Source: Gelidibacter algens (GTDB lineage Bacteria > Bacteroidota > Bacteroidia > Flavobacteriales > Flavobacteriaceae). Taken from it: 59,076 bases of DNA. Positions 11,883-32,594 of the stretch are shown here, in pieces. A program made the translations under genes and the position numbers. The stretch covers positions 1-59,076 of the forward strand of contig NZ_LZRN01000027.1 of NCBI RefSeq assembly GCF_001678675.1, in the 5' to 3' direction. Within the stretch, counting starts at the first letter, position 1. Every line of letters begins with the position of its first letter. The notes under the pieces were generated by a model that was not told where the DNA came from, did no database searches, and saw nothing but the letters and a program-made list of their open reading frames with translations.

Positions 11883-11926
11883 GAAACAAAGGTTACATCC
11901 ATTCTGCTCATTGTCTATTATCTTCA
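11883..11926 (+). promoter_or_regulatory. degenerate dyad plus -7 box (CRP/FNR-like site, copy a)
   Basis: GAAAC-AAAG-GTTAC (11883-11896) differs by one base from the GTAAC-N4-GTTAC dyad seen four more times in this window. It is followed after exactly 22 bp by TATCTTCA (11919-11926), a partial -7 box almost the same as the one before the SQR gene. The methyltransferase gene starts about 160 bp further on. Confidence 0.45.
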
Positions 11927-12089
11927 TATTCATTTAAAAATTAACCTTTCAAGAGAAGAGTTATTGTTATTAATCATTTACTCACAATAATATTTGACTA
12001 GTGATTTGACTTAAACTGCACAAAAGCCCTTCGAGATGAATCGTTTTTGAAATAATACATTTTAAGGATCCGATCAAAAATTCATACAA

Positions 12090-12731
12090 ATGGATACAAA
12101 AGAACATTGGGAAAAAGTTTATAAACACAAAAGTCCATACCAAGTTAGCTGGACGCAAGAAAAACCAGAAATCTCCTTAAAATTAATTCAGGAAAGTGGT
12201 ATATCAAAATCTGCTAAAATAATAGACATAGGCGGTGGTGATAGTAAATTGGTCGATTGCTTACTTGAAGGTGGATATAAAAATATTACTGTGCTGGATA
12301 TTTCTGCCATAGCAATTGAAAAAGCAAAAAAACGTTTGGGCAATAATGCTGCCAAGGTACAATGGATTGTTAGTGATATAACTTCGTTTCAACCTCCCAA
12401 TATGTACGATTTATGGCATGATCGGGCTGCTTTTCATTTTTTAACCTCAAAACAGCAAATTGAGAGTTATGTAGCAATTGTTAGTAAATCTGTAACGCAA
12501 AACTTAATTATTGGCACTTTCTCAAAAGAAGGTCCTGAAAAATGCAGTGGTTTGGAAATTTCCCAATATGATGACATTGGATTGACAAAAGTATTTGAAC
12601 ACAACTTTGAAAAGGTCAAATGTCTTACCGCAGATCATATCACGCCTTTCGACACCGTACAAAACTTTCAATTTTGCAGTTTTAAGAAATCCAATGAACC
12701 TAAAATTAGAGCTATACATAAGCAAACCTAA
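12090..12731 (+). CDS. class I SAM-dependent methyltransferase
   Basis: A 213-aa Rossmann-fold methyltransferase with the SAM-binding motif I IIDIGGGDSKL near residue 45, an acidic VLDIS at the end of strand 2 and a WHDRAAFHFL segment where motif IV lies. The substrate cannot be read from the sequence. It sits directly before peroxiredoxin and persulfide dioxygenase genes and behind a degenerate copy of the shared dyad, so a role with reactive sulfur or other small thiol-like compounds is plausible but inferred. Confidence 0.8.
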   Translation: MDTKEHWEKVYKHKSPYQVSWTQEKPEISLKLIQESGISKSAKIIDIGGGDSKLVDCLLEGGYKNITVLDISAIAIEKAKKRLGNNAAKVQWIVSDITSFQPPNMYDLWHDRAAFHFLTSKQQIESYVAIVSKSVTQNLIIGTFSKEGPEKCSGLEISQYDDIGLTKVFEHNFEKVKCLTADHITPFDTVQNFQFCSFKKSNEPKIRAIHKQT

Positions 12732-12771
12732 TTTCAAAATATTGACTTCGGTGCAATTAATACAAAACACT

Positions 12772-12815
12772 GTAACTTGTGTTACTGGCTAACACATTAT
12801 TATAGCTTAACTTTA
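12772..12815 (+). promoter_or_regulatory. GTAAC-N4-GTTAC operator and -7 box (copy b)
   Basis: A perfect dyad GTAAC-TTGT-GTTAC (12772-12785) is followed after 22 bp by TAACTTTA (12808-12815), one base off TAnnTTTG. The layout fits a CRP/FNR-type activator bound near -42. It precedes the peroxiredoxin ATG by 65 bp and overlaps no gene. Confidence 0.65.
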
Positions 12816-12850
12816 ATAAAAAGTTATACTAATAAAAAAATTTAATAGTG

Positions 12851-13513
12851 ATGGAAACAAATTTAGAAATGCAACAAGTAAATTCGATGCCGAGGATTGG
12901 CGATACTGCTCCAGATTTTGAAGCAGTCACAACAAAGGGAAAAATTAAATTTTCAGATTTTGCCAAAGATAAATGGATTGTCATGTTTTCTCATCCAGCC
13001 GATTTTACGCCTGTATGTACCACAGAATTAAGTGGCTTTGCAAAAAGAAAGGGTGAGTTTGACGCGCTCAACACGCAACTTTTAGGTTTAAGTATCGATA
13101 GTATCCACGCCCATTTAGGTTGGGTTCAAAATGTGAGAGAAAACACTGGCGTTTATTTTGATTTTCCTATCATCGCAGATATTGATATGAAAGTTGCAAA
13201 ACTATATGGAATGTTGCAACCTAACGAAAGTGAAACCGCTGCCGTGCGTGCCGTATTTTTCATTGACCCAAGTAAAAAAATACGATTGGTGATGTATTAT
13301 CCATTGAACGTAGGTAGAAATATGAACGAGATTTTACGCGTTTTAGAAGCACTTCAAATTTCAGATGAGTATCAAGTAGCCATGCCTTTAGATTGGAAAA
13401 AAGGTGATAAAGTAATTGTGGGTCCACCAAAAACATTGGATGAACTTAACGCTCGATTAGCAGACGATTCTCTCGAGAAAGTAGATTGGTATTTGGCAAA
13501 GAAAAATATTTAA
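12851..13513 (+). CDS. 1-Cys peroxiredoxin (Prx6 type)
   Basis: Reduces peroxides with the single Cys56 in HPADFTPVCTTE; no other cysteine is present, which marks the 1-Cys Prx6 class. The long C-terminal part (PLNVGRNMNEILRVL...VIVGPP) is also typical, and 220 aa is the usual size. I place the start at the ATG; a GTG lies one codon upstream. It lies downstream of dyad copy b and upstream of the persulfide dioxygenase, suggesting joint protection against peroxides and hydropersulfides. Confidence 0.93.
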   Translation: METNLEMQQVNSMPRIGDTAPDFEAVTTKGKIKFSDFAKDKWIVMFSHPADFTPVCTTELSGFAKRKGEFDALNTQLLGLSIDSIHAHLGWVQNVRENTGVYFDFPIIADIDMKVAKLYGMLQPNESETAAVRAVFFIDPSKKIRLVMYYPLNVGRNMNEILRVLEALQISDEYQVAMPLDWKKGDKVIVGPPKTLDELNARLADDSLEKVDWYLAKKNI

Positions 13514-13522
13514 TTTCTGACT

Positions 13523-13558
13523 ATCAGTCTCGGTTTCTAAAAGCCAAGACTGATTTTT
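13523..13558 (+). terminator. stem-loop between peroxiredoxin and persulfide dioxygenase
   Basis: ATCAGTCT (13523-13530) pairs with AGACTGAT (13547-13554), followed by TTTTT. It lies just after the peroxiredoxin stop and 33 bp before the next ATG, so it could end or reduce transcription between the two genes. Confidence 0.6.
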
Positions 13559-13591
13559 CATGAATTTTTGTAGAATTTAAAACTATAGCAT

Positions 13592-14923
13592 ATGGACATT
13601 AAACAATTTGAATACAAACCCCTCGCCCATTATTCCTACGCTCTTGTTAGTGATGGTAAGATGGCAGTTATTGATCCTGAACGTGATCCACAACAATACT
13701 ACACTTTTGCGAAAGCAAATAACGCTAAAATTGTTGCCATAATCGAGACGCATCCACACGCTGATTTTGTGAGTTCCCATCTTGAGATCCACAAAGAAAC
13801 CGGAGCAACTATTTATAACAGTGAAAAGTTGGGTGCTGATTATCCACATCAGGGTTTTGATGAAGGTGATCATATCACGTTGGGGACTATTACCCTTAAA
13901 GCCATCAATACACCAGGTCACTCCCCAGATAGTATTACAATTGTTGCCACAGAAGGTGATGAAACTGCTATTTTTACAGGTGATACTCTTTTTATAGGAG
14001 ATGTTGGACGTCCCGATCTTCGTGAAAAAGTTGGCAATATGAAAGCAAAACGCGAAGAATTGGCTGAAATGATGTACCACACCATGACCTCAAAGTTTAA
14101 TAAACTACCAGATGATGCTGTGGTTTACCCTGCTCATGGCGCTGGATCACTTTGCGGAAAAAATCTGAGCGAGGCTGCCAGCAGTACCTTAAGTGAGGAA
14201 CGGAAAAACAATTGGGCTTTTAAAGAACAATCCAAGGAAAAATTTATCCAGACTTTGCTCGATGGTCAACCCTTTATTCCATCCTATTTTGGATTTAATG
14301 TGGACATCAATAAAACAGGTGCCAAAGATGTAGCGGCTGCCATCTCTAAAATTCCATTCAAAGAAAATACCACTGCCACAGGACTTATTATTGACATGAG
14401 AAATGAAGTAGACTTTAAAAAAGGACATTTGGAGGGAAGTATTAACATACAAGCAAAAACAGATACTGAAAAATTCGAAACCTGGTTGGGCGCCATCGTG
14501 ACTCCAAAAGAAGCCTTTACCTTAGTCATCGACAGTAAAGAAAACAAGGACAAAATTTTGAACCGGTTAGCGAAAATAGGTTACGAAAAACAGGTTGCAC
14601 AGGTTATTACACTTTCTGAAGAAAACCTCGTGAATACGCCGAAATTGGATTTGAAAGATTTCAAAAAGAATCCTGACCATTATACTATTGTAGATATTCG
14701 TAATCAAAGTGAAATCAATGAAGGCAAGTTTTTTGAAAAAGCACTCGCACATCCTTTGAATACCTTGCGGGATACCGCAGAAAACATTCCGACAAACAAG
14801 CCTATTGTGGTGCATTGCGCCGGAGGCTACCGGAGTGCTGCCGGAAGCAGCATTCTTGAAAACGAATTGCATGGGATAACCGTTTATGATTTAAGTGATG
14901 ATATAGAACAATTTAAAGATTGA
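13592..14923 (+). CDS. metallo-beta-lactamase-fold persulfide dioxygenase with two rhodanese domains
   Basis: An ETHE1/Blh-like protein that oxidises glutathione persulfide to sulfite with a mononuclear iron centre. The metal motif THPHADFVSSH (His54, His56, Asp58) and GDTLFIGDVGRPDL are visible in the N-terminal 250 residues. Two rhodanese domains follow. The first (about 265-345) has no cysteine at its active loop and looks structural. The second has Cys409 in CAGGYRS and should be catalytic for sulfane-sulfur transfer. Length (443 aa) fits the fused family. The neighbouring peroxiredoxin and sulfur genes support a sulfide-detoxification role. Confidence 0.93.
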   Translation: MDIKQFEYKPLAHYSYALVSDGKMAVIDPERDPQQYYTFAKANNAKIVAIIETHPHADFVSSHLEIHKETGATIYNSEKLGADYPHQGFDEGDHITLGTITLKAINTPGHSPDSITIVATEGDETAIFTGDTLFIGDVGRPDLREKVGNMKAKREELAEMMYHTMTSKFNKLPDDAVVYPAHGAGSLCGKNLSEAASSTLSEERKNNWAFKEQSKEKFIQTLLDGQPFIPSYFGFNVDINKTGAKDVAAAISKIPFKENTTATGLIIDMRNEVDFKKGHLEGSINIQAKTDTEKFETWLGAIVTPKEAFTLVIDSKENKDKILNRLAKIGYEKQVAQVITLSEENLVNTPKLDLKDFKKNPDHYTIVDIRNQSEINEGKFFEKALAHPLNTLRDTAENIPTNKPIVVHCAGGYRSAAGSSILENELHGITVYDLSDDIEQFKD

Positions 14924-15369
14924 ACCTAAAAAACCCAATCAAGGACTATGTATTTGTAATGCTACAACTGCTGCTTTTTGTGGCATACGTTGTACCCTTA
15001 AAACTGTCCAACATATACTTACCCGAATGGTTAAACTATTCGGGTTTAATAATTTTAGGACTTTCTGTGATTTTCGGAATGGTAGCCCTTTTGCAATTAA
15101 ACACAAAACTCTCTCCTTTTCCATCTCCGGTTAGTTCTGGCAGGTTGATCACCACAGGAGCATTCCGGTTATCGAGACATCCCATTTACACCGCTTTAAT
15201 CTTTTCAGGGTTTGGATATGCTATTTTTCAGACATCGCTCTATAAGACAGTGATCACACTGATGCTTTTAATCCTCTTTTATTATAAATCCGTTTATGAA
15301 GAAAAGCTCTTGTGTAACAAATTTTCAGAGTATCATGATTATAAGAAAAGGACACGACGGTTTCTTTAG
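14920..15369 (+). CDS. isoprenylcysteine carboxyl methyltransferase (ICMT)-like membrane protein
   Basis: A 149-aa integral membrane protein with about four hydrophobic segments and the family signature TGAFRLSRHPIYTALI followed by a C-terminal E...Y.DYK..T pattern. The family uses SAM to methylate lipid or small substrates; the substrate in bacteria is generally unknown. The TTG start overlaps the stop of the persulfide dioxygenase gene as TTGA, so translation is probably coupled and the protein likely works in the same process. Confidence 0.8.
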   Translation: MNLKNPIKDYVFVMLQLLLFVAYVVPLKLSNIYLPEWLNYSGLIILGLSVIFGMVALLQLNTKLSPFPSPVSSGRLITTGAFRLSRHPIYTALIFSGFGYAIFQTSLYKTVITLMLLILFYYKSVYEEKLLCNKFSEYHDYKKRTRRFL

Positions 15370-15437
15370 AAAACTATAAACGTACATTTTGATGAGACCT
15401 AAGCCGTCTTCAATTTGACTAGGTCTATAAACATAGA

Positions 15438-15474
15438 AAAACCGCATCAGCTTTTAATTCCGATGCGGTTTTTT
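15438..15474. terminator. bidirectional terminator between convergent genes
   Basis: An 11-bp perfect stem AAAACCGCATC / GATGCGGTTTT with a 13-nt loop has a T run on the plus strand and a matching run on the minus strand. It separates the plus-strand sulfur operon from the minus-strand TlpA gene. Confidence 0.85.
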
Positions 15475-15492
15475 AATTCATTTGGTAACTTA

Positions 15493-16119
15493 TTATTTCA
15501 AACTTTTCAGGAATTTTTTAAATTCCTCATCGCTGTAATCGGCCATTCCCTTATGTGTTAAAGCGAGATTTCCATCGGCATCAATAATATACGTGGTAGG
15601 AATTGCAGAAGATTGATACATACTTGGGAGATTGCTTGCTGGTGCATAAATAGGTAGGTTGTAACCTTTTCGTTTGTCAAACGCTTTGGCCAGTTCAAAA
15701 TCCTGATCCAGTGAGAGCATTACAAAAGCCACTTCGTCTCCCATTTCTTCGTGTAATTTATCGATGCTCGGCATTTCGGCAATGCAAGGTGGACACCAAG
15801 TGGCCCAAAAGTTCATAAAGATCACTTTACCTTTCAATGCTTCCAAAGAAGATATATTTCCATCTTTATCAATCAACTTCAGATTGAAGTCTGCTTTGGT
15901 TGACGCTGGTAAATCGGCAGAGGTGCTTTCATTATGTCGCACCTCTGTAATTTCCTTCACATCCGGATTCATCAAACCTGTTGCTAATAATCCGCGTTGC
16001 GCAAAACCAATGACTTCGGTATGCAATCCTGTGGCGTATAACACCACTGCTACTACGGCGAAAACCCCATATTGAATCCAGGTTTTCTTTGTGTCTTTGC
16101 TTTTTTTATTCTTGTCCAT
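15493..16119 (-). CDS. TlpA-family membrane-anchored thioredoxin
   Basis: A 208-aa thiol-disulfide protein. A basic N-terminus (KNKKSKDTKKT) is followed by one membrane segment (about 12-30), which puts the thioredoxin domain (about 75-208) in the periplasm. The active site is WCPPC within NFWATWCPPC, and a cis-Pro loop (AIPTTYII) is present. It is the last gene of the DoxX-DsrE-SoxB-like operon, 11 bp after the SoxB-like gene, so it may reduce that protein or a sulfur carrier, comparable to SoxW. That partnership is inferred from position. Confidence 0.9.
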   Translation of the reverse strand: MDKNKKSKDTKKTWIQYGVFAVVAVVLYATGLHTEVIGFAQRGLLATGLMNPDVKEITEVRHNESTSADLPASTKADFNLKLIDKDGNISSLEALKGKVIFMNFWATWCPPCIAEMPSIDKLHEEMGDEVAFVMLSLDQDFELAKAFDKRKGYNLPIYAPASNLPSMYQSSAIPTTYIIDADGNLALTHKGMADYSDEEFKKFLKSLK

Positions 16120-16130
16120 ATATTTAATTT

Positions 16131-17789
16131 TTACTGAAATTTATAATCTGTTCCTGGTACGGTTGAAAAGGAATAAACACCGAGGTAATCACAATAAGCT
16201 CTTCCTTCTAAAACTGGTGATACGGGAGAATTTTTTTGGAGATATTCCTCAACCACTTCATGAATGGTATAGTCTTTAATCTCAACGTCTTTCACATTAG
16301 GCATTCTACAGAGATTATCGATGGGATCCCCTGGGCGCACACAAGCAGACACCGTATAGTATTGATCATCATTCATCGGTTCACCGTTGACTGTAATCTC
16401 CGAAATACGCTGCCCTCTATCATTTTGACTATTAAAATTGACTTTCATTCCTGAGAATCGGACCAACCAACCACCAAAGCGCTCGGTTGGGTTTTGGGCA
16501 AAAGCATTGTGCATTTCTTTTTCCAACCAGTTTATTATCTGTTTACCTGTAGCTTTTCCAGTTTTAACTTTTTCGTTAACAGGAAGCAAGTTCCATAGGT
16601 TTGCTCTTGTAATGGGCGCAAGTTTTCCATCTTCAGGAACAATGGGGTTACCAAAACGAAAACCATTTGAAATTGAGATATCTGCTCCAGTTTTCCAACG
16701 TGCCGCATCAGTAATCATATTATCCATAGGGTTTTCTACAGTCAAGTATCGGTAGATGGGTGTTTCTGTGTATCCCACAACGGTTTCTAAATAATCTTTA
16801 TAAGGCGCTTTTTCCTTATCCACAAGAGTTTGTATAGCTTCATTTGCGGGAAAAACTTTTGGATCCACATCAATGAGCTCATAATCATCGCCTACTAATT
16901 TGCCCTCTACAAAATGGAGTGTCAGTTTACCAACGAAAGAACCAAACGCGCCTGGTTCAGTAACCTTGGCATATTTACCTTGTATGAGTTCGCGGACTCT
17001 TTCATGGGTATCATTACCAAGCACATAATCTGCATTTTCGGCTATTGGATTATTGGCAAGTTCTAATTGCTTAAAAATGCCAATATGTGTGACCAGAAAA
17101 AGCACATCTATTTTCTCATTGATTTTAATGTCATCTACTATTTTTTTTAATTTATCATCAAGTCCGCTAAAACCAATGCCCTTGCTGAAAATGGGGTTTT
17201 GCCGGATTGGAACATCAGGATCGTTAAGTCCCACAAAACCAATACGAATGCCCTCAATTTCCTTAACCCAAAACGGTGGAAACAATGATTCCTCATTATT
17301 TTCATGATACATGTTCTGGGCAATTATTTGAGTGTCATATCCCTGCATCACATTCATCATGATCTCCTTGCCATAAACTACTTCCCAGTTTCCAGGAATA
17401 ATGACGTCATAACCCATGTTCTTAACTACATCTTGCATCACCTTACCTTCAGATAAAGCGGCATAACCACTACCTTGTATGAGGTCTCCCCCATCAACAA
17501 TGATGGTTTTATCGGGATTTTTTTGGCGTTCTTGATCAAAAAGTGTTTTAATGTTTGCAAGACCACCCCGCTCTTTAAAGACGATTTTTTCATCTTCCCA
17601 AAACAGTTCTGGATGCGGGTCCAACTGTCCATGAATATCCGCAGTTTGTAAAATGGTAATACTCAAGGTATCCTTTAAAGTAGCGTCTTTTGCCATGGCG
17701 TCCGATTTTTCAGTTTTACAGGCAACTGATAGTAGCAAGATCCCTAAAATGGATACAGTTGGCAAAATTTTTCTATTAATTGTTTTCAT
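16131..17789 (-). CDS. SoxB-like 5'-nucleotidase-family lipoprotein
   Basis: A 552-aa dimetal phosphoesterase-fold protein with a lipoprotein signal (LLSVAC, Cys24). N-terminal motifs are TADIHGQLDPH, VDGGDLIQGSG and GNWEVVYG; a later GNDTHERV is the usual GHTH-like block. A C-terminal 5'-nucleotidase domain starts near 340. Ordinary 5'-nucleotidases have GNHE. A tryptophan at this place is a hallmark of SoxB (GHWEFTYG), the thiosulfohydrolase of the Sox pathway, so I favour a SoxB-like sulfur hydrolase. It is flanked by DsrE/DoxX and thioredoxin genes with gaps of only 2 and 11 bp. No SoxYZ, SoxAX or SoxCD gene is in the window. A periplasmic nucleotidase is the alternative. Confidence 0.82.
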   Translation of the reverse strand: MKTINRKILPTVSILGILLLSVACKTEKSDAMAKDATLKDTLSITILQTADIHGQLDPHPELFWEDEKIVFKERGGLANIKTLFDQERQKNPDKTIIVDGGDLIQGSGYAALSEGKVMQDVVKNMGYDVIIPGNWEVVYGKEIMMNVMQGYDTQIIAQNMYHENNEESLFPPFWVKEIEGIRIGFVGLNDPDVPIRQNPIFSKGIGFSGLDDKLKKIVDDIKINEKIDVLFLVTHIGIFKQLELANNPIAENADYVLGNDTHERVRELIQGKYAKVTEPGAFGSFVGKLTLHFVEGKLVGDDYELIDVDPKVFPANEAIQTLVDKEKAPYKDYLETVVGYTETPIYRYLTVENPMDNMITDAARWKTGADISISNGFRFGNPIVPEDGKLAPITRANLWNLLPVNEKVKTGKATGKQIINWLEKEMHNAFAQNPTERFGGWLVRFSGMKVNFNSQNDRGQRISEITVNGEPMNDDQYYTVSACVRPGDPIDNLCRMPNVKDVEIKDYTIHEVVEEYLQKNSPVSPVLEGRAYCDYLGVYSFSTVPGTDYKFQ

Positions 17790-17791
17790 AG

Positions 17792-18214
17792 TTACAGGCT
17801 CAAGCTTTTATATCCTTTTTTCTGAAGTTGGAAATTGTAAAGAATGCCATTTTCAACCGTTATCATTTCCTTGGGTATTTTCGTCTTATCTACTTTGAAT
17901 TTATTGAGAGAAAAACCACAAGCCACTAATTGTACCCCTGCTTTTTCGGCCTTTTTTATAAACTCTCCCATTTTTTCGGAATCGGTAATATCTCCAATCT
18001 CCTTACCACAGATGATGATCTGGAAGTCACCAAATGCATCACCTTCTTCAGTCTTAAGTGCTTCTGCAGTGAGGATTATAGGTTGTAATTGTGCTACTTT
18101 TTTGGTAAGCACCACATAATTGTTTTTGCTGCTGTCCATTTGTTGTGCCTCAAGATTAGTGGCACTAAACAAGGTGAGCATTAAAAATAGTGAACTAAAA
18201 AGATATGTTTTCAT
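17792..18214 (-). CDS. secreted DsrE-family protein
   Basis: A 140-aa protein with a clear signal peptide ending near AQQ (about residue 25) and a DsrE-like core: ILTAEALKTEEGDAFGDFQIIICGKEI and VQLVACGFSLNKF. It has two cysteines (in IICGKE and ACGFSL) that could carry sulfane sulfur. DsrE proteins hand sulfur between enzymes; here it would act outside the cytoplasm. It sits 6 bp after the DoxX gene and 2 bp before the SoxB-like gene. Confidence 0.85.
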   Translation of the reverse strand: MKTYLFSSLFLMLTLFSATNLEAQQMDSSKNNYVVLTKKVAQLQPIILTAEALKTEEGDAFGDFQIIICGKEIGDITDSEKMGEFIKKAEKAGVQLVACGFSLNKFKVDKTKIPKEMITVENGILYNFQLQKKGYKSLSL

Positions 18215-18220
18215 TTTGAT

Positions 18221-18619
18221 TTATTTTAAAAGGTTATTGGTATCATTCAGTATAAAAAAAAGAAGTCCACCTAAAATTGCAATGTTTTTAAATAGTGGTC
18301 CAAGGGTTGTAATCTGTCCTACTTGAACCGTTAAAGTGATGGGAATTAACACCGCCATCAATATTATTGCCGCCCATTTGGTCTTATATCCAATAAGAAA
18401 TAGAAAACCCGCTACCAACATTACGATACCAGATAGGATGATGAGCCATTGCGGCTCGCCAAAAAAATTGGCGAAACCCGCAAAGTTGGCCTGCTCTATC
18501 CGTTGTGCGGTTTTTTCTACATTGAGCAAATGATTAAAGCCGGCTACTAAAAATATACCGCTTACCAAGATGCGCAATAGCTGTATGGAACGGCGACTGA
18601 TTAAAATTTTTGTCGTCAT
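18221..18619 (-). CDS. DoxX-family membrane protein
   Basis: A 132-aa protein with four predicted membrane helices and the DoxX pattern RILVSGIFLVAGFNHL...RIEQANF...FGEPQWLIILSGIVMLVAGFLFLIG. DoxX/DoxD relatives are subunits of thiosulfate:quinone oxidoreductase or membrane partners in oxidative-stress complexes. It is the first gene of the compact minus-strand sulfur operon, so a role passing electrons from the SoxB/DsrE reactions to quinone is plausible. Confidence 0.88.
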   Translation of the reverse strand: MTTKILISRRSIQLLRILVSGIFLVAGFNHLLNVEKTAQRIEQANFAGFANFFGEPQWLIILSGIVMLVAGFLFLIGYKTKWAAIILMAVLIPITLTVQVGQITTLGPLFKNIAILGGLLFFILNDTNNLLK

Positions 18620-18735
18620 TATTGAGATGTAAAAGAGATTGTTTGATGTTTTTAGAAGCTTACCCGAGCCTATTAGCTATAATTTTAGAGCTAAAGAACA
18701 CTCGCGAGCTCTCAAATTGAGTCCGTTAATAGAGG

Positions 18736-19113
18736 TTAGACTAAACGAGGCGGTGGAGAAACGCTTTCTAAGTAGCGATAATTTAAGCGTGATGGTACAT
18801 GATCATCCAAAACTGCAATAGGATCAGAATAATTGATTTCCCAAGTAAAGAGCTCTAAATGAAACGGCGTAGTACATTGACCGCTTAATATTATAAGCTG
18901 TTCTTGATGATGATCTTGTTGAGAAAAGTTTTGTGATGTCTCTGTGGCATCCACAGTAGCTTGCTTCTTACAATAGGGATTCACAAAAACGGTATCAGTT
19001 GCACTGAAGAGCGTTTTTAAGCCATGGGCATCTATAGCAACAAATTTTGCCAAAAAGATAAATGTCAATACGACTGCTATGTAAGTTCTAGTTTTCAAGA
19101 ATGTTGCAAACAT
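18736..19113 (-). CDS. small secreted or membrane-anchored protein of unknown function
   Basis: A 125-aa protein with one N-terminal hydrophobic segment (about 10-26), a Cys/His-containing middle (PYCKKQ, QQDHHQEQ, GQCTTP) and a C-terminal YLESVSPPPRLV end. I do not recognise the family. The ATG given here lies inside a perfect TATGTTTG -7 box placed 22 bp after a GTAAC-N4-GTTAC dyad. If that promoter is real, this ATG is not on its transcript and a TTG at 19098 would be the first usable start. The gene is 116 bp upstream of the DoxX operon and may share its promoter. Confidence 0.6.
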   Translation of the reverse strand: MFATFLKTRTYIAVVLTFIFLAKFVAIDAHGLKTLFSATDTVFVNPYCKKQATVDATETSQNFSQQDHHQEQLIILSGQCTTPFHLELFTWEINYSDPIAVLDDHVPSRLNYRYLESVSPPPRLV

Positions 19114-19150
19114 AAGTGAAAGAATTCGGCCGCTGTGTAACCTTTGTTAC
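19107..19150 (-). promoter_or_regulatory. GTAAC-N4-GTTAC operator and -7 box (copy c)
   Basis: The dyad GTAAC-CTTT-GTTAC (19137-19150) is perfect. Reading the minus strand, TATGTTTG (19114 down to 19107) is an exact TAnnTTTG box 22 bp away, the same distance as in the other copies. It points towards the small membrane gene and the DoxX-DsrE-SoxB-like operon. Confidence 0.65.
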
Positions 19151-19261
19151 CTAGCTGTGTTAAATTCATATTAAAAAGCAGCCCATAGTTACTATCGCTT
19201 CAATTACAGCAAATTAAAAATGTCATTTACCTATAGGATTGCACTGAGTCCTATCACTAAA

Positions 19262-25307: not shown

Positions 25308-25325
25308 TATTTAAAACAAATCACC

Positions 25326-25784: not shown

Positions 25785-25790
25785 CATGAT

Positions 25791-26693
25791 ATGAGCATCT
25801 CCATCAGCCATATCAGTAAATCCTATAAAAAAGTAAACGCTTTAAAGGATATTTCCTTTGAAGTAGAGGCAGGAGAACTCTTTGGACTTATTGGTCCTGA
25901 TGGTGCAGGCAAAACGACGCTTTTTAGGATTTTGACCACTTTATTGATTGCCAATGAGGGTACAGCAACGGTGGCTGGTTTTGATGTGGTTGTCGAATAT
26001 AAAAACATCAGAAAAAGTGTGGGTTATATGCCTGGGAAATTTTCATTGTATCAGGATTTAACAGTGGCCGAAAATTTGAATTTTTTCGCCACTATTTTTG
26101 GAACCACGGTTGAAGAAAATTATGACTTGATCAAGGACATCTATGTTCAGATTGAACCTTTTAAAGACCGTAGAGCTGGTAAACTTTCTGGCGGAATGAA
26201 GCAAAAACTAGCGCTATGCTGTGCTTTAATCCATAAACCAAAGGTGTTGTTTTTAGATGAACCAACCACTGGTGTTGATCCAGTTTCGAGAAAGGAATTC
26301 TGGGAAATGCTAAAACGTCTCCAACTAAAAGGCATTACCATTTTGGTGTCCACACCTTATATGGATGAAGCTGCTTTGTGTGATCGTATCGCATTGATTC
26401 AAGATGGCAAAATACTGGAAATCGATACGCCTGAAGCTATTGTAAGGCATTATCCAAAGGCAATTTACAATGTTAAGGCCAATAATATGTATCAGCTCAT
26501 TAAAAGTTTAAATGACTATGAACATAACCACAGCGTGTATCCTTTTGGAGAATATGTGCATTACACTGACCGTAGAACAGATTTCAACCCCAAAGAATTG
26601 CTTCAGTATTTAGAATCGAACAATCTTTCGGCCATTGAAATTGAACCAACGGTAGCTACTATTGAAGACACCTTTATGGAATTGGCAAAATAA
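25791..26693 (+). CDS. ABC transporter ATPase (YbhF N-terminal-half type)
   Basis: A 300-aa nucleotide-binding subunit with Walker A GPDGAGKTT, signature LSGGMKQKLALCCAL and Walker B VLFLDEPTTGVDP. The unusual GPDGAGKT P-loop is typical of the first half of YbhF, an ATPase that is a two-domain fusion in enterobacteria. Here the two halves are separate genes in the same order. It starts 6 bp after the OsmC stop. Confidence 0.92.
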   Translation: MSISISHISKSYKKVNALKDISFEVEAGELFGLIGPDGAGKTTLFRILTTLLIANEGTATVAGFDVVVEYKNIRKSVGYMPGKFSLYQDLTVAENLNFFATIFGTTVEENYDLIKDIYVQIEPFKDRRAGKLSGGMKQKLALCCALIHKPKVLFLDEPTTGVDPVSRKEFWEMLKRLQLKGITILVSTPYMDEAALCDRIALIQDGKILEIDTPEAIVRHYPKAIYNVKANNMYQLIKSLNDYEHNHSVYPFGEYVHYTDRRTDFNPKELLQYLESNNLSAIEIEPTVATIEDTFMELAK

Positions 26694-26723
26694 CCTGCAA
26701 GGTTTTAAAAACCGTGTAGGTTT
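26692..26723. repeat. short palindromic intergenic repeat
   Basis: AACCTGCAAGGTTTT followed by AAAACCGTGTAGGTT forms an imperfect palindrome of about 32 bp that starts within the last codons of the first ATPase gene. It can fold in either direction and is unlike the CGCAGAT family. Confidence 0.7.
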
Positions 26724-26731
26724 AACTAAAG

Positions 26732-27461
26732 ATGATAAACAACAACGTCATACACGTAGAAGGATTAACCAAAATGTTTGGGGATTTTACAGCCGTAGAT
26801 GCCATCACTTTTGATGTTAAAAAAGGCGAAATCTTCGGGTTTTTAGGAGCTAACGGCGCAGGAAAAACCACAGCGATGAAAATGTTGATTGGCATTTCCA
26901 AACCAACGTCTGGAAAGGCCAATGTCGCAGGATTTGATGTGTTTACACATGCAGAAGACATCAAAAAAAACAATTGGGTACATGAGTCAGAAGTTTGCCT
27001 TGTACGATGACTTAACCGTTAAAGAGAACATCACTTTTTTTGGTGGCATTTACGGATTGACGAGAAAACGCATCAAAGAAAAATCGGAGGCGCTGATTGA
27101 AGAGTTGGGTTTGGAGAACGTCGCTACCAAATTAGTAGGCTCCTTACCTCTAGGCTGGAAACAGAAACTATCCTTTTCGGTGGCGTTGTTGCACGACCCA
27201 AAAATCGTGTTTTTAGATGAGCCCACAGGTGGTGTGGATTCAATTACCAGGCGTCAATTCTGGGAAATGATTTACAAAGCATCGCATCAGGGCACTACCG
27301 TTTTTGTAACCACACATTATATGGATGAAGCCGAATATTGTGATCGGGTTTCCATTATGGTCAACGGGAAAATTGAAGCATTGGATACGCCTAAAAAATT
27401 AAAAGAGCAGTTTAAAGTTACAAATATGAATGATGTGTTTTTGAAATTGGCGAGAGGATGA
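26732..27461 (+). pseudogene. frameshifted second ABC ATPase (YbhF C-terminal-half type)
   Basis: The first frame carries Walker A GANGAGKTT and runs to FDVFTHAEDIKK. After an A8 run (26963-26970) the rest, starting TIGYMSQKFALYDDL, continues in the next frame through LPLGWKQKL, FLDEPTGGVD and HYMDEAEYCDR to the stop. Seven A residues would restore one 242-aa ATPase. The protein could still be made by transcriptional slippage on the A run, or the shift could be an assembly error. Otherwise the exporter lacks its second ATPase. Confidence 0.8.
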
Positions 27462-27468
27462 AAAGGTT

Positions 27469-27561
27469 TCCCGCAGATGGCGCAGATTTACGCGGAAGAA
27501 CACCCAATAAAATCTGCGGTTATCCGCGAGATCTGCGGGAAAAAAAGCGAGATCTGCGGGA
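27469..27561 (+). repeat. CGCAGAT hairpin repeat, copy 3 (duplicated right arm)
   Basis: Begins TCCCGCAGAT 7 bp after the ATPase stop. The right-hand arm GAGATCTGCGGGAA is present twice in tandem. It directly precedes the GxxExxY gene. Confidence 0.85.
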
Positions 27562-27581
27562 AAAAAATAAAATCTAAAATT

Positions 27582-27968
27582 ATGGAACAAAAAACAGAAA
27601 ACGATATTTCATATTTAATTAGAGGTGCGATTTTTAAGATTTACAACGAATTGGGTCCAGGTTTACTGGAATCAGTTTATGAAACGGTCTTGAGTTTCGA
27701 ATTACGAAAACAAGGATTGGAGGTAAAAAACCAAGTGCCATTGCCTGTATTTTATGAAGGCACTAAATTAGAATTAGGATTTAGATTGGATTTACTAGTA
27801 AATGAAAAAGTAGTTGTTGAGATAAAATCGGTTGAAAATTTAGCGGAAGTGCATCACAAACAAGTTTTGACATATTTAAAACTATCTAATTTGAAATTAG
27901 GAATTCTCGTGAATTTCAATGTAGATAATATCGAAAAAGGCATTTTCAGGAAAGTGAATGGATTGTAA
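27582..27968 (+). CDS. GxxExxY protein (PD-(D/E)XK nuclease-like)
   Basis: A 128-aa protein with the defining GPGLLESVYE motif near residue 25 and, in the middle, FRLDLLVNEKVVVEIKSVE, which gives the D...E-x-K arrangement of PD-(D/E)XK nucleases. Its biochemical role is not established. It is unrelated to transport but is inserted between an ABC ATPase and its permease, with CGCAGAT hairpins immediately on both sides. A longer reading frame from 27477 merely translates the repeat, so I use the ATG at 27582. Confidence 0.9.
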   Translation: MEQKTENDISYLIRGAIFKIYNELGPGLLESVYETVLSFELRKQGLEVKNQVPLPVFYEGTKLELGFRLDLLVNEKVVVEIKSVENLAEVHHKQVLTYLKLSNLKLGILVNFNVDNIEKGIFRKVNGL

Positions 27969-27987
27969 AAATGTCTGGGGAAAAAAG

Positions 27988-28085
27988 TCCCGCAGATTCC
28001 GCAGATACACGCAGAAAGAAGAATACGAAAATCAACAGTAACCATAGGAAAAAAAAATCTGCGCCAATCTGCGAGATCTGCGGGA
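27988..28085 (+). repeat. CGCAGAT hairpin repeat, copy 4
   Basis: Has TCCCGCAGATTCCGCAGAT on the left and GAGATCTGCGGGA on the right, with an inner loop containing GAATACGAAAATCAACAGTA that recurs in copies 5 and 6. It starts 19 bp after the GxxExxY stop. Confidence 0.85.
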
Positions 28086-28098
28086 AAGAAAAAAAATG

Positions 28099-28193
28099 TC
28101 CCGCAGATTTCGCAGATGCAAGCAGAAAAAAGAATACGAAAATCAACAGTAATCATGGGGAAAAAATTTGAGCCAATCTCCTGATCAGCGGGA
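28099..28193 (+). repeat. CGCAGAT hairpin repeat, copy 5 (decayed right arm)
   Basis: The left arm and inner loop are nearly the same as in copy 4. The right arm has decayed (CTCCTGATCAGCGGGA), so pairing is poorer. It is part of a tandem array of about 110-bp units. Confidence 0.8.
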
Positions 28194-28207
28194 AATGAAA
28201 AAAAATG

Positions 28208-28345
28208 TCCCGCAGATTTCGCAGATACACGCAGAAAAAAGATTACAAAAATAAACAGTAATCATCGGAAAAAAATCTGCGAAAATCCGCGTGATCTGCG
28301 GGAAAAAAAGCGTGATCTGCGGGAAAGAAATCGAGATCTGCAGGA
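28208..28345 (+). repeat. CGCAGAT hairpin repeat, copy 6 (triplicated right arm)
   Basis: Third unit of the tandem array. Its right arm is repeated three times with 8-9-bp A-rich spacers, the last copy slightly changed (ATCTGCAGGA). Confidence 0.85.
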
Positions 28346-28377
28346 AACAGAAAATTTTAACAATTAAAAACAGAGCT

Positions 28378-28393
28378 CCCTGCCTTCGCAGGG
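28378..28393. repeat. CCCTGC-CTTC-GCAGGG hairpin
   Basis: A perfect 6-bp stem with a CTTC loop lies inside CTCCCTGCCTTCGCAGGGAC, another small flavobacterial-type intergenic repeat, 88 bp before the permease start shown here. Confidence 0.6.
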
Positions 28394-28465
28394 ACTTAGG
28401 ATAGAAAAGATTCATAGGTTTTAATAAAAAAAGAATTCTACCACATTTTTAGGGATAAGCGCTCC

Positions 28466-29509
28466 TTGTTTATTCTCTTCGGAATGCCCATTGCCCAAAT
28501 TTTACTGTTCGGTTTTGCCATTACCAATGAAATCAATAATGTGGACATCGCCATTTTAGACCATTCAAAAGATGCTACCACCAAAGAAATCATCAATAAA
28601 ATAGCAGCTTCAAAATATTTCAGCATCAAGCAAATGATTGAACGTGAAGCAGACATCGCTTCTGTGTTTCAAAAAGGGCATGTGAAAGCCGTTTTGAATT
28701 TTGAAAAGGATTTCAGTAAAAACCTGATCAAAGACCGCAAAGCAACCATTCAAATAATCACAGATGCCACAGACCCAAATACGGCAAACACCATTAGCAA
28801 TTATGTCAACGCCATCCTTCAGCAGTACCAAAAACAACTGAATAAGGACATCACAATTGCTTATCAAATCGTGCCGCAAACACGCATGGTATATAATCCG
28901 GAATTAAAAAGCGTGTATATGTTTGTTCCAGGGGTCATGACCATTATTTTGATGTTGGTTTCTGCAATGATGACCTCCATTTCCATCACAAGAGAAAAAG
29001 AATTGGGCACCATGGAAATTTTATTGGTATCGCCTTTAAAACCGTTTCAGGTCATTATAGGAAAAGTGTTTCCCTATATTTTTCTGTCCATTATCAATGC
29101 TGTAGTGATTGTACTGTTAAGCATTTTTGTATTCAAAATGCCAATTCAAGGCAGCTTGTTTTTATTGGCTTTAGAAAGCATTCTGTTCATCATAAGCGCT
29201 TTGGCATTGGGCATATTGATCTCAACCATTTCAGCAACACAACAAACGGCCATGATGATTTCACTTATGGGGCTCATGCTACCCGTTATATTATTGTCTG
29301 GATTTATTTTCCCGATTTCGAGCATGCCAATGCCACTCCAAATTATTAGCCATATCATTCCGGCAAAATGGTTTATCATCATCATCAAAGGAATAATGCT
29401 CAAAGGTGTTGGATTGGAATATCTATGGAAAGAAACAGTGATATTATTGGGAATGACGGTGTTCTTCATTGCATTGAGTGTGAAGAAATATAAAATTAGG
29501 TTGGAGTAA
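28466..29509 (+). CDS. ABC-2 permease (YbhS/YbhR type), N-terminus damaged
   Basis: A membrane subunit of the exporter: a first helix (SLFILFGMPIAQILLFGFAI), a large periplasmic loop (about 25-150) and five C-terminal helices ending before the last 10 residues. Relatives begin about 20 residues earlier with MK.F..FI.KEF.HIFRDKRS. These residues are still readable upstream (28403-28465) but with one extra A in the ATG (ATAG) and another in the run before the KKEFYHIFRDK coding segment. The TTG start given is therefore a fallback, and the protein may be unstable or unmade. Confidence 0.75.
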   Translation: MFILFGMPIAQILLFGFAITNEINNVDIAILDHSKDATTKEIINKIAASKYFSIKQMIEREADIASVFQKGHVKAVLNFEKDFSKNLIKDRKATIQIITDATDPNTANTISNYVNAILQQYQKQLNKDITIAYQIVPQTRMVYNPELKSVYMFVPGVMTIILMLVSAMMTSISITREKELGTMEILLVSPLKPFQVIIGKVFPYIFLSIINAVVIVLLSIFVFKMPIQGSLFLLALESILFIISALALGILISTISATQQTAMMISLMGLMLPVILLSGFIFPISSMPMPLQIISHIIPAKWFIIIIKGIMLKGVGLEYLWKETVILLGMTVFFIALSVKKYKIRLE

Positions 29510-29529
29510 AAAACGGAAAAGAGAAAAGA

Positions 29530-29615
29530 GAAAATAGACAATAGAGAATAGAAAAAAGACAAAAGATCAACATCGTTATAGAGCATCTTTATTCTCTACT
29601 CTATATTCTTTATTC
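29530..29615. repeat. imperfect inverted repeat between the two permease genes
   Basis: A purine-rich left arm (AGAAAATAGACAATAGAGAA...) and a pyrimidine-rich right arm (TCTTTATTCTCTACTCTATA...) pair imperfectly over about 30 bp. It fills most of the gap between the two permease genes. Confidence 0.6.
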
Positions 29616-29625
29616 CTTTAAAAAT

Positions 29626-30747
29626 ATGAAAATAATCGGCTATATCATCCAAAAAGAGTTCAAGCAAATCTTTAGAAATAAAGGCATGCTTCCCATCATT
29701 TTTGTGCTGCCACTACTCCAACTTATTATTTTATCAAACGCAGCCACTTTCGAAGTTAAGAATATCAAATTTGCCTATATTGATCATGATCATACCTCGA
29801 CATCTAGAGCATTGGTTGAAAAATTCAGTGCCTTCACTTATTTTGATGTGCTTACCCATTTTCCTTCGGAAGGCTTGGCAAGTTCAGCAATGCTGAGGGG
29901 CGAAGTTGATGTGGTTTTAGAGATTCCGCGTTACTTTGAGCGCGATTTACAAAATGAGAAACACAACCCTTTAGGGGTTACCATCAATGCGATTGATGGG
30001 GCAGCAGCAGGAGTGGAAAATGTTTACGTTAATCAGATTATTCAGGGTTTTAACCAACATTTGAAGGTTGATTTGTTACAGCCTTCTGACCAGGTTATTC
30101 AGCCCCTAAGTATTGACACGATTCCCCTATTCTGGTACAACGAAACCTTAAATTATAAAACCTTTATGGTGCCCGGGATTTTGGTGTTGCTGGTTACAAT
30201 GATCACGCTGTTTCTTTCAGGAATGAATATTGTACGTGAGAAAGAAATTGGCACCCTCGAGCAAATCAATGTGACACCTATAAAGAAAAGCCAGTTCATC
30301 ATTGGAAAGCTCTTTCCTTTTTGGGTCATTGGGATGGCGCTATTGACTATCGGGTTGATCATAGCGAAACTCGTTTTCAACGTCCCCATGATTGGCAGCT
30401 TACCGCTCATGTATTTCTACACCTCCATATATATTTTAGTGGTTTTGGGGATTGGTTTGTTTATCTCAAATTTTACGGACACACAGCAACAGGCCATGTT
30501 TATCGCTTGGTTTTTTACGGTTATTTTCATTTTAATGAGTGGCTTATTCACGCCTATTGAGAGTATGCCACAATGGGCGCAAATTGTCACTGAGTTCAAT
30601 CCCATCAAATACTTTGTAGAAGTCATGCGCATGGTCATGCTCAAAGGCTCTGGATTTATGGATATTCTTCCGCAGGTCTTAAAAACATTACTTTATGCAT
30701 TGGTCATGAATGGTTTAGCGGTATGGAGCTATAAAAAAACAAGTTAA
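29626..30747 (+). CDS. ABC-2 permease (YbhR/YbhS type)
   Basis: A 373-aa second membrane subunit, intact, with the N-terminal IIQKEFKQIFRNKGMLPIIFVLPLLQL, an extracytoplasmic domain (about 45-165), the conserved NIVREKEIGTLEQINVTPI loop and five further helices. Together with the other permease, the two ATPase halves, the HlyD protein and TolC it makes a complete tripartite ABC exporter set. No terminator is obvious after it. Confidence 0.92.
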   Translation: MKIIGYIIQKEFKQIFRNKGMLPIIFVLPLLQLIILSNAATFEVKNIKFAYIDHDHTSTSRALVEKFSAFTYFDVLTHFPSEGLASSAMLRGEVDVVLEIPRYFERDLQNEKHNPLGVTINAIDGAAAGVENVYVNQIIQGFNQHLKVDLLQPSDQVIQPLSIDTIPLFWYNETLNYKTFMVPGILVLLVTMITLFLSGMNIVREKEIGTLEQINVTPIKKSQFIIGKLFPFWVIGMALLTIGLIIAKLVFNVPMIGSLPLMYFYTSIYILVVLGIGLFISNFTDTQQQAMFIAWFFTVIFILMSGLFTPIESMPQWAQIVTEFNPIKYFVEVMRMVMLKGSGFMDILPQVLKTLLYALVMNGLAVWSYKKTS

Positions 30748-30754
30748 CCCTTAT

Positions 30755-30798
30755 GTAACTCATGTTACGCTCCACTATAAAAAACAGACTTACCTTCA
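30755..30798 (+). promoter_or_regulatory. GTAAC-N4-GTTAC operator and -7 box (copy d)
   Basis: A perfect dyad GTAAC-TCAT-GTTAC (30755-30768) is followed 22 bp later by TACCTTCA (30791-30798), a partial TAnnTTTG box. The SQR ATG is 16 bp after the box, giving a very short leader. Confidence 0.65.
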
Positions 30799-30813
30799 TT
30801 AAAAAATAAAGTC

Positions 30814-32271
30814 ATGGCTAAAATAGTTGTCTTAGGCGCAGGAATATCAGGTCACGTAGCAGCATCTCATTTACGCAGAAAGCTGCCTAAAGAACATGAA
30901 GTTGTAGTAGTGTCGCCTAATAGTAATTACCAATGGATTCCATCGAATATCTGGGTTGGCATTGGCAGAATGAAATCTGAAAAAATTCTATTCCCATTAG
31001 CACCTTTATACAAAAGGAAGCACATTGGTTATAAACAGGCTAAAGCAGTTTCGTTTTATCCTGAAGGCGATCAAAATGAACAAAAACCTTATGTTTTAGC
31101 TGAATATGTATTTGGCGAACAGAAGGGCCAACAAGAAAAAATCACCTACGATTATTTAATTAACGCCACAGGACCCAAACTTAATTTTGAGGCTACTGAA
31201 GGTTTAATTCCCGGTAAAAACAAAACCTACTCAGTGTGCACCTATACCCATGCAGATCACGCTTGGGAAGGTTTAAAGGCATTGATTGAGCAGATGAAAC
31301 AGGGCAAAAAAGCGAGAATTCTGATTGGCACAGGCCATGCCAAAGCTACCTGTCAAGGGGCTGCTTTTGAGTACATTTTAAATGTGGAAGAAGAACTGCG
31401 CAAACATAAGGTGCGTGACATGGCTGAAGTGACTTGGATTTCCAACGAATACCAATTAGGTGATTTCGGAATGGATGGCATGTTGCTGAGTTACGGCAGC
31501 ATGACCATGAAATCTCACGAAATGATTGAAATGATTTTTGAAGATCGCGATATCAAATGGATCCTGGGTGCTGGTGTCAATAAAATTGAAGATGGTGTAG
31601 CGCATTATGAGAATTTAGAAGGCGAACAGAAATCAGAACTCTATGATTTTGCCATGCTTATCCCCTCGTTTTCTGGTCATGGTTTTAAAGCCTTTAATAA
31701 AAACGAAAACGACATTACAGAAAAGCTCTTCAAAGGATTTATGATTGTCGATGCCAATTATACACCAAAACCATACGAAGAATGGTCTGTGCAAGATTGG
31801 CCAGAAACCTATCAAAATCCGACTTACAAAAACATTTTCGCACCCGGAATAGCGTTCGCTCCTCCCCACAGTATTTCCAAACCAAGAAAAAGCAAAAACG
31901 GAACAGAGATTTTCCCTGCACCACCGCGTACTGGAATGCCTTCAGGTATTACCGCAAAACTTGTGGCCGAAAACATTATAGACACCATCAAAAACGGTCA
32001 AGAATCTTTAAGCCATAAAGGATCTATGGGAAATATGGGCGCAGCATGCATTGCTTCTGCAGGCTTCGGCATGACCACAGGAAGTGGTGTTAGCATCACC
32101 ACATATCCAATTGTACCTGACTACGAAAAATATCCAGAAACACAAGGCCGAAAATTAGGCAAAACCTTTGGAGAAATTGGGCTAGCGGGCCATTGGTTAA
32201 AATTGGCTTTACACCATGCCTTTATCTATAAAGCAAAAATGCGCCCTTTTTGGTGGTTGATTCCTGAATAA
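30814..32271 (+). CDS. sulfide:quinone oxidoreductase-like flavoprotein
   Basis: A 485-aa FAD-dependent pyridine-nucleotide-disulfide-family enzyme with N-terminal dinucleotide motif VVLGAGISGHVAASHL, ATG motif YLINATGPKL and candidate redox cysteines in YSVCTYTHADHAWEG, HAKATCQGAAFEY and GAACIASAGFG. The C-terminal amphipathic end (HHAFIYKAKMRPFWWLIPE) suits membrane attachment near quinone. It should oxidise sulfide to polysulfide or persulfide, supplying the persulfide dioxygenase encoded at 13.6 kb. Both sit behind the same dyad promoter. The FCC-like type or exact SQR class cannot be fixed by eye. Confidence 0.88.
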   Translation: MAKIVVLGAGISGHVAASHLRRKLPKEHEVVVVSPNSNYQWIPSNIWVGIGRMKSEKILFPLAPLYKRKHIGYKQAKAVSFYPEGDQNEQKPYVLAEYVFGEQKGQQEKITYDYLINATGPKLNFEATEGLIPGKNKTYSVCTYTHADHAWEGLKALIEQMKQGKKARILIGTGHAKATCQGAAFEYILNVEEELRKHKVRDMAEVTWISNEYQLGDFGMDGMLLSYGSMTMKSHEMIEMIFEDRDIKWILGAGVNKIEDGVAHYENLEGEQKSELYDFAMLIPSFSGHGFKAFNKNENDITEKLFKGFMIVDANYTPKPYEEWSVQDWPETYQNPTYKNIFAPGIAFAPPHSISKPRKSKNGTEIFPAPPRTGMPSGITAKLVAENIIDTIKNGQESLSHKGSMGNMGAACIASAGFGMTTGSGVSITTYPIVPDYEKYPETQGRKLGKTFGEIGLAGHWLKLALHHAFIYKAKMRPFWWLIPE

Positions 32272-32346
32272 AATAAGTTTTCAGTCGCAGTATTCAGTAT
32301 GCTTTAAAGCAAAATTATCAGTTTAAATATTTTTAAAAAGAACACT

Positions 32347-32484
32347 ATGACACAACGTATCTCAAAATATCAAAGATTTAAAATGATGAATCCTATCATC
32401 CAATTTTTTAAGTTCATTTATTTAAGTATTAAAATAATGGTCATTGTGGCTGGAGGACATGGAGGCACGAGAAAAATAAACTGA
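32347..32484 (+). CDS. 45-aa membrane microprotein with VAGGHGGTR motif
   Basis: A short gene of 45 codons between the SQR-like gene and a terminator. It has a basic N-terminus, one hydrophobic helix (NPIIQFFKFIYLSIKIMVIV) and a C-terminal AGGHGGTRKIN. The clean ATG, its position 75 bp after the SQR stop and the strong terminator right after it support a real gene in the SQR transcript. The function is unknown; a small membrane partner of SQR is a possibility. Confidence 0.6.
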   Translation: MTQRISKYQRFKMMNPIIQFFKFIYLSIKIMVIVAGGHGGTRKIN

Positions 32485-32518
32485 TGTGATTGTCAGTAGT
32501 TTGGTTGTTAATGTTGAA

Positions 32519-32547
32519 AACACTCTTTCTTAAGAGTGTTTTTTTTT
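32519..32547 (+). terminator. intrinsic terminator after the SQR transcript
   Basis: AACACTCTT / AAGAGTGTT form a perfect 9-bp stem with a TCTT loop, then a run of seven or more T. It ends the SQR-microprotein unit just before the next dyad promoter. Confidence 0.9.
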
Positions 32548-32550
32548 AGT

Positions 32551-32594
32551 GTAACATTGGTTACTGACCAAGACTTTTATCCAAAGTACTTTTG
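32551..32594 (+). promoter_or_regulatory. GTAAC-N4-GTTAC operator and -7 box (copy e)
   Basis: A perfect dyad GTAAC-ATTG-GTTAC (32551-32564) is followed after 22 bp by a perfect TAnnTTTG box TACTTTTG (32587-32594). With transcription starting about 7 bp later the dyad would be centred near -43, the class II activator position. Confidence 0.7.

Follow-up and report, generated by a model that had tools for sequence, protein, structure and literature searches.

A single contig of Gelidibacter algens raises the question of which protein reads a palindrome repeated before five of its genes, and in response to what signal. The window, that is, the whole stretch of 59,076 nucleotides analysed here (contig NZ_LZRN01000027.1 of assembly GCF_001678675.1), had been described in an earlier, sequence-only reading as carrying five GTAAC-N4-GTTAC dyads, four of them perfect and the fifth with a single mismatch, each followed at a fixed distance by a TAnnTTTG-type promoter box, and the genes behind them had been interpreted as one regulon for reduced sulfur. 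All five dyads and the spacing were recovered. The comparisons described below make it likely that an activator of the CRP/FNR superfamily uses the dyads as class II operators and governs a reactive-sulfur regulon, the candidates for this role being one or both of two paralogous proteins encoded on other contigs (C63 and C4).

The dyad, the box and their spacing

The degenerate dyad GAAACAAAGGTTAC (11883..11896, plus strand) is followed by the box TATCTTCA (11919..11926), and the perfect dyads GTAACTTGTGTTAC (12772..12785, plus), GTAACAAAGGTTAC (19137..19150, minus), GTAACTCATGTTAC (30755..30768, plus) and GTAACATTGGTTAC (32551..32564, plus) by the boxes TAACTTTA (12808..12815), TATGTTTG (19107..19114), TACCTTCA (30791..30798) and TACTTTTG (32587..32594), respectively, each on the strand of its dyad. 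In 5/5 cases the box begins exactly 22 bp past the dyad. When one mismatch was allowed and the dyad was considered alone, 0.97 matches were expected in the window and at least five were seen in 2/100 shuffles, a modest rarity. Across the genome (4,506,948 bases in 140 contigs, the window being contig C27) the exact dyad occurs at 10 sites, against 29 for the reversed-pattern control; since it is rarer than its control, the dyad by itself was rejected as evidence, and the signal is therefore the dyad plus the box.

These 10 exact dyads lie in the window (four), on C63 (two) and, one each, on C71, C3, C14 and C75. For the four of the window, the two of C63 and that of C71, one orientation shows TAnnTT at 22 bp, i.e. 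7/10 where base composition predicts about 0.19 (P ~1e-10), and the three dyads devoid of a box fall in open frames of 1004 (C3), 367 (C75) and 98 codons (C14). The presence of 4/10 exact dyads within a 59-kb contig has a P of ~6e-6. Dyad plus box with up to two mismatches gives 10 sites in the genome, namely the four perfect ones of the window, the two of C63, that of C71, and C4:6003, C46:11190 (preceding a DUF983 gene) and C80:7295, this last one (two mismatches) being left undecided, as its contig ends 23 bases past the box. The full pattern is not randomly scattered, most of these sites preceding sulfur or thiol genes. At up to three mismatches 64 matches were found versus 153 for the control, and these were treated as mostly chance; the site at 11883, where 3/16 fixed bases differ, is the weakest of the five. 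A 47-column matrix, built from sites of other genomes only (one of them of the same genus), places the five sites at the top of the window, with scores of 38.6 (32551), 33.0 (19137), 24.9 (12772), 20.5 (30755) and 15.0 (11883). In the window one further score exceeds 6, that of site 32551 read in reverse (9.8), and the maximum over six shuffles was 10.0.

The arrangement is kept in related flavobacteria. When 149 family genomes, from 148 genera, were searched for dyad-N10..35-TANNTTTG, 251 matches were obtained in 104/149 genomes (103/148 genera), compared with 51 matches for the reversed pattern. Among the 150 matches listed (63 genomes), the two elements are separated by 22 bp in 117, by 21 bp in 12 and by 23 bp in 6, from an allowed range of 10–35, and sulfur genes frequently lie behind them. 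At the level of the phylum, the pattern was found in 34/73 genomes of the same class and in 10/223 outside it.

At class II CRP/FNR promoters the dimer site is centred at -41.5 and replaces the upstream promoter element. The same geometry is predicted here, with the difference that the box is the Bacteroidota sigmaA element TAnnTTTG and not TATAAT. If the sigmaA box lies at -12 to -5, as in the F. psychrophilum transcription map (PMC9723704), the dyad would span -48 to -35 and be centred at -41.5, which fits the position of a class II activator and the estimate of about -42 made from the window alone. Over 113 sites, the spacer is poor in information and lacks a clear -33 element, and the bases after the box are rich in A/T.

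Two paralogous candidate regulators

No regulator gene had been noticed in the window, and CRP/FNR-family genes with a conserved linkage to the dyad are indeed found outside it. The genome has six HTH_Crp_2 matches, and the recognition helix S-R-V-V-I-S-R is present in only two of these six genes, on C63 and C4. The first (C63:8549-9238, minus strand) encodes a CRP/FNR-family protein of 229 residues, and its stop codon is placed 5 bases before the dyad C63:8530-8543, which, with the box TACTTTTG, precedes a TauE/SafE gene. The second dyad of C63 precedes a metallo-beta-lactamase (MBL)-rhodanese gene with a rhodanese gene behind it, and that of C71 a Thioredoxin_9 gene. Directly past the stop codon of the C4 paralogue (C4:6047-6682, minus strand; 53% identical to the C63 regulator) comes a dyad with one mismatch, and behind it lie two genes of the Sulf_transp family (YeeE/YedE-type) and one for TauE. 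A cyclic nucleotide-binding-type N-terminal domain (PF00027) and a Crp-type helix-turn-helix (PF13545) were matched in 48/48 and 47/48 regulators, respectively. The C63 protein is the best candidate regulator for the dyads.

The linkage was scanned with a site score of at most 1.5, A or G at the third base and a distance of no more than 250 bp from where the regulator frame ends, in three sets of regulators that overlap in part and were not chosen by the dyad. A linked site was present in 24/30 of the highest-identity homologues, in 22/40 of a hand-chosen set of lower identity and in 55/78 regulators of named genomes, all 55 at a spacing of 22. The controls for the named loci gave 0/1600 in shuffles, 0/79 in coding windows and 1/79 on the reverse strand. 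A homologue of the regulator (E 1e-25) is encoded in 126/149 genomes of the family, and the pattern is present in 101/126 genomes with such a homologue and in 3/23 without. Over the phylum (E 1e-20), the regulator was found in 62/73 genomes of the same class and in 54/223 outside it.

CRP residues 180 and 181, in the recognition helix, have been tied to DNA positions and held to set the specificity (Rodionov et al., PMC1274295). Position 181 is Val in 49/51 and Glu in 2/51 regulators, and Val or Glu, with no Pro, in 91. In these 91 regulators, partly chosen through their sites, the third base is A in 57/57 cases with Val and a site, and G in 7/8 with Glu; a quick tree (helix columns kept) gives five residue changes and three base changes. 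Operator variants were also seen. C4-type regulators often lie beside the dyad GTAAC-N4-AT(T/C)AC, with the same 22-bp spacing (L232-L251, G000:C4:6003-6046), and three regulators with a T-R-V helix (L254, L256, L258) lie beside GTATCTTTTGATAC (GTATC-TTTT-GATAC), with poor boxes about 23 bp on; GTATCTTTTGATAC is a possible further variant of the operator.

The only cysteines of the C63 protein are residues 96, 102 and 103, and the C63 and C4 proteins both carry the motif C-S-M-(T/S)-x-T-C-C, in a stretch that we take to be equivalent to the cyclic AMP (cAMP)-phosphate cassette of CRP. C96 is kept in 50/51 regulators, C102 and C103 each in 47/51, and the cysteine motif in 69/75 regulators with the S-R-V helix. 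An AlphaFold model of the regulator shows, by eye, a CRP-like order of helices and strands, with a mean predicted local distance difference test (pLDDT) of 86.8; the cysteine motif falls in a stretch of lower confidence (pLDDT 75 for residues 91-100 and 69 for residues 101-110). The best sequence match among solved structures is the Crp/Fnr protein of PDB 3dv8 (presumably from Eubacterium rectale), which has the same C-x5-C spacing in the aligned stretch, the match being limited to 164 residues (E 2.3e-13). Assignment to FNR of the [4Fe-4S] type, which is marked by an N-terminal cysteine cluster, was rejected, the C63 protein having none; so was a cAMP-CRP equivalog (NF008732, 49.5 bits versus a cut-off of 266).

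Genes behind the sites

The genes behind such sites were sampled in 117 stretches of other genomes, with 131 sites of spacing 21-23 among the matches listed. An open frame lies behind the box at 130/131 sites, and the start codon, by our own choice of starts, is placed 13-30 nt past the box in 81/130, nearer in 16 and farther in 33. Counted over the 25 most frequent of 46 Pfam families, the 130 first proteins comprise Rhodanese (29), TauE (25), OEP (21), Lactamase_B (20), SulP (6), AhpC-TSA (5) and Sulf_transp (YeeE-type, 5) and, more rarely, Thioredoxin_9 (4), the YgaP transmembrane family (3), cytochrome bd (2), NrfD (2) and DsrE (2). In terms of their best match in the present genome, the first genes correspond to TauE (25), the TolC of the window (21), the C63 MBL-rhodanese (18), the small membrane gene at 19137 (6), the rhodanese of the window (5), YeeE (5), the C63 rhodanese (4), thioredoxin (4), redoxin (4), DUF983 (3), the MBL-rhodanese of the window (2) and four single others, 29 having none. 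Circularity through gene clusters was avoided by setting apart the sites that have none of the 137 listed homologues of the regulator (at least 40% identity) within 10 kb. Among the genes behind these 67/130 distant sites are TolC (18, in 18 genomes), rhodanese (5), small membrane (5), thioredoxin (4), MBL-rhodanese (4) and TauE (4) genes. The single reduced-sulfur regulon proposed from the window thus gains support, TauE, MBL-rhodanese, rhodanese, SulP and YeeE genes being frequent behind the sites of the family. Cytochrome bd, NrfD-ferredoxin and cytochrome-c-like genes also lie behind sites elsewhere (L149, L169, L130, L161, L118, L133, L162), pointing to a respiratory part of the regulon; CydA-type genes stand behind 2/130 sites, and cydAB is induced in A. 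baumannii according to PMC7315123.

In the window, the box at 11919 is followed after 163 nt by a methyltransferase gene (12090..12731, plus strand; Pfam Methyltransf_25), the product of which could be guessed to be a thiol methyltransferase. This gene is absent from the 130 first genes behind sites in other genomes, and in 3/78 named loci the 1.5 kb downstream of the regulator hold frames that match it best. A gene of the TPMT family (thiopurine S-methyltransferase) was seen near the C63 regulator cluster (L017:4078-4542); with the methyltransferase at the weakest site of the window, it makes methylation of sulfur compounds possible. Behind the dyad at 12772 lie a gene of 1-Cys peroxiredoxin type (12848..13513, plus; AhpC-TSA and 1-cysPrx_C), the best match of 1/130 first genes elsewhere, and one encoding an MBL fold plus rhodanese, persulfide-dioxygenase-like (13592..14923, plus), the best match of 2/130, compared with 18/130 for its C63 paralogue.

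The minus-strand dyad at 19137 stands before a gene for a small membrane protein (18736..19113, minus) with no Pfam match, which is the best match of 6/130 first genes and the first of a series. It is followed on the same strand by genes for DoxX (18221..18619; Pfam), a protein of 140 residues (17792..18214), a SoxB-like protein (16131..17789; Pfam 5_nucleotid_C and Metallophos) and a redoxin/thioredoxin-like protein (15493..16119; Pfam). The 140-residue protein, the best match of 1/130 first genes, had been labelled DsrE-like, a label that finds no Pfam or NCBIfam match; the SoxB-like protein scores 259.9 bits against SoxB TIGR04486, under the cut-off of 550. The box TATGTTTG includes the ATG of the listed frame 18736-19113. 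Judged from homologues, translation probably begins instead at a TTG near 19098, a few nt past the box, which would leave the mRNA almost without a leader. The dyad at 30755 precedes a gene for an SQR (sulfide:quinone oxidoreductase)-like flavoprotein (30814..32271, plus; Pfam Pyr_redox_2), which matches 1/130 first genes (E 4e-8) and scores 56.6 bits against the NCBIfam type III SQR (cut-off 525).

Behind the highest-scoring site of the window lies the operon of a resistance-nodulation-division (RND) pump, all on the plus strand. Its first gene encodes a TolC-type outer membrane protein (32603..33922; Pfam OEP), which is the best match of 21/130 first genes behind the sites of the family, with E values of 7e-140 or lower. 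The content of the operon was compared in 20 of these 21 TolC loci (stretches extended; L272-L291). A HlyD-type periplasmic adaptor (34054..35238; Pfam), the RND pump itself (ACR_tran, 35312..38506; Pfam) and a YgaP-like transmembrane protein (38912..39127; Pfam) are found in 20/20, and a protein of 127 residues with no Pfam or NCBIfam match (38510..38893) in 19/20. Many genera keep this operon after the dyad. Membership of the rhodanese gene at 39356..39718 (Pfam), the best match of 5/130 first genes, is doubtful, as it occurs in 0/20 pump operons. YeeE-type genes follow the pump operon in 4/20 loci; at one of these loci they stand between a C4-type regulator gene and the genes for TauE and MBL-rhodanese. 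The substrate of the pump encoded at 32603-39127 is possibly a sulfur compound.

Taking the five sites of the window one by one, the comparisons speak strongly for those at 32551 and 19137, moderately for 12772, thinly for 30755 (one distant SQR-like match elsewhere) and weakly for 11883. Apart from these sites, positions 25791-28171 hold two ABC ATPase frames, of which the second covers no more than positions 52-136 of the profile, then a gene of the PD-(D/E)XK nuclease family and ABC membrane genes, possibly a disrupted or composite operon.

Proposed mechanism, alternatives and significance

It is proposed that a dimer of the C63 protein, with or instead of the C4 paralogue, would bind GTAAC-N4-GTTAC centred at -41.5, stand in for the -33 element and help sigmaA RNA polymerase at the TAnnTTTG box; direct binding to the dyads, and activation rather than repression, are what we infer from the sequences compared. 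The regulon would handle reactive sulfur through SQR-like, persulfide-dioxygenase-like MBL-rhodanese, rhodanese, TauE/SafE and YeeE/YedE-type proteins, and would also include thioredoxin/peroxiredoxin and DoxX-SoxB-like genes and the TolC-HlyD-RND pump. Gene content and the cysteine motif suggest sulfide or persulfide as the signal, with persulfide sensed through C-x5-CC, that is, by C96, C102 and C103. In a bolder form, to which we give slightly less than an even chance, the regulator would be a persulfide sensor of CRP/FNR fold, its cAMP-pocket cassette turned into a C-x5-CC thiol switch, and the general activator of the sulfide response in Flavobacteriaceae, driving also a conserved RND pump operon for the possible export of a sulfur compound.

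Several observations weigh against this reading. Sites are missing near 23/78 named regulators at the threshold used, and sites were found upstream of the regulator in 21/79 control windows, so adjacency is not downstream-only; these upstream sites may reflect autoregulation or neighbouring genes of the regulon. Genomes of the family without the regulator tend towards smaller size or lower completeness, and in two genomes of the same class, G372 and G380, sites at 22-23 bp are present although no homologue was found at E 1e-20. A genome of the same genus (G013) has four full sites and one homologue only, of C4 type (52% identical), so that the evidence does not single out C63. In the named set, two regulators with an S-R-E-V helix (L328 and L330) have perfect GTAAC sites, which weakens a strict residue-181 code and makes the covariation of residue and base only a tendency; the tree gives two independent pairs (agreeing in 1.8 on average, never opposing), too few for significance. 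Finally, at 14/67 distant sites the gene behind belongs to no family recognised as part of the regulon.

The dyad is already in print as the HcpR2 motif, which the sequence-only reading did not mention: Rodionov et al. (2005, PMC1274295) predicted the consensus GTAACnnnnGTTAC for the hcp genes of Clostridium, Bacteroides, Thermotogales and others. HcpR2 and the regulators considered here belong to one superfamily. The identity of the two DNA sequences raises the alternative of an HcpR2-like nitrosative-stress regulon, in which the regulator would respond to nitric oxide (NO) and the sulfur genes would be part of that response. We consider it very unlikely. HcpR2 has Pro at CRP position 181 according to the same source, whereas Val is found here; the targets are sulfur genes and not hcp, for which the search with PF03063 found no match in this genome (5/14 control genomes have one); and no Prismane, globin or NO reductase is among the 25 most frequent Pfam families of the 130 first genes. 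The name HcpR2 was accordingly rejected on residue 181 and hcp, the DNA motif agreeing. A general response to thiols or oxidants, in which the conserved cysteines would sense peroxide, quinones or electrophiles and the sulfur genes would form one branch, is unlikely to a lesser degree: it would account for the peroxiredoxin, thioredoxin and RND pump genes and for a cysteine motif as well kept as described above, but, the pump aside, the commonest genes belong to sulfur families (TauE, MBL-rhodanese, rhodanese, SulP, YeeE).

The CRP-type protein might instead be a repressor that occupies the promoter until sulfur releases it, as repressors (CstR and BigR) are among the known persulfide-sensing regulators of such operons (PMC7315123). 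The centre at exactly -41.5 at most sites and the lack of a clear -33 element fit an activator, and an activator is favoured because a repressor site needs no fixed spacing, leaving repression a slender probability. Chance dyads near AT-rich boxes would be compatible with the dyad alone not being over-represented in the genome and with the shuffles that reach five one-mismatch dyads, but the spacing, the conservation, the gene content and the linkage to the regulator hold across genera; this explanation is extremely improbable, a chance origin being unlikely for the four perfect sites, though it may apply to the one at 11883.

An activator of CRP/FNR type thus remains the preferred reading, and it can be set beside the sulfur switches of other bacteria. 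SqrR and YgaV are among the regulators named as persulfide-responsive for operons of this kind, and CstR is a repressor of the CsoR family. In PMC7315123, FisR, BigR and CstR are described as persulfide-responsive regulators of sqr/pdo/tauE/yeeE operons, similar in content (SQR, persulfide dioxygenase, TauE, YeeE/YedE) to the genes found here; FisR is a sigma54 activator and BigR a repressor of the ArsR family, whereas the regulator proposed here is of CRP/FNR type and probably a class II activator. Among the matches listed in a search of the open-access literature, none was recognised as a sulfur regulon of CRP type in Bacteroidota.

If true, this reading would add an activator of CRP/FNR type to the sulfide and persulfide switches, those found described being of other protein families, and its operator code would be readable from the sequence in about a hundred flavobacterial genera. 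Membership of the regulon would give a hint to the role of unknown genes, above all those of the conserved RND pump operon. Flavobacteria are abundant in the sea, and the question of how sulfide is sensed in Bacteroidota would become directly testable.

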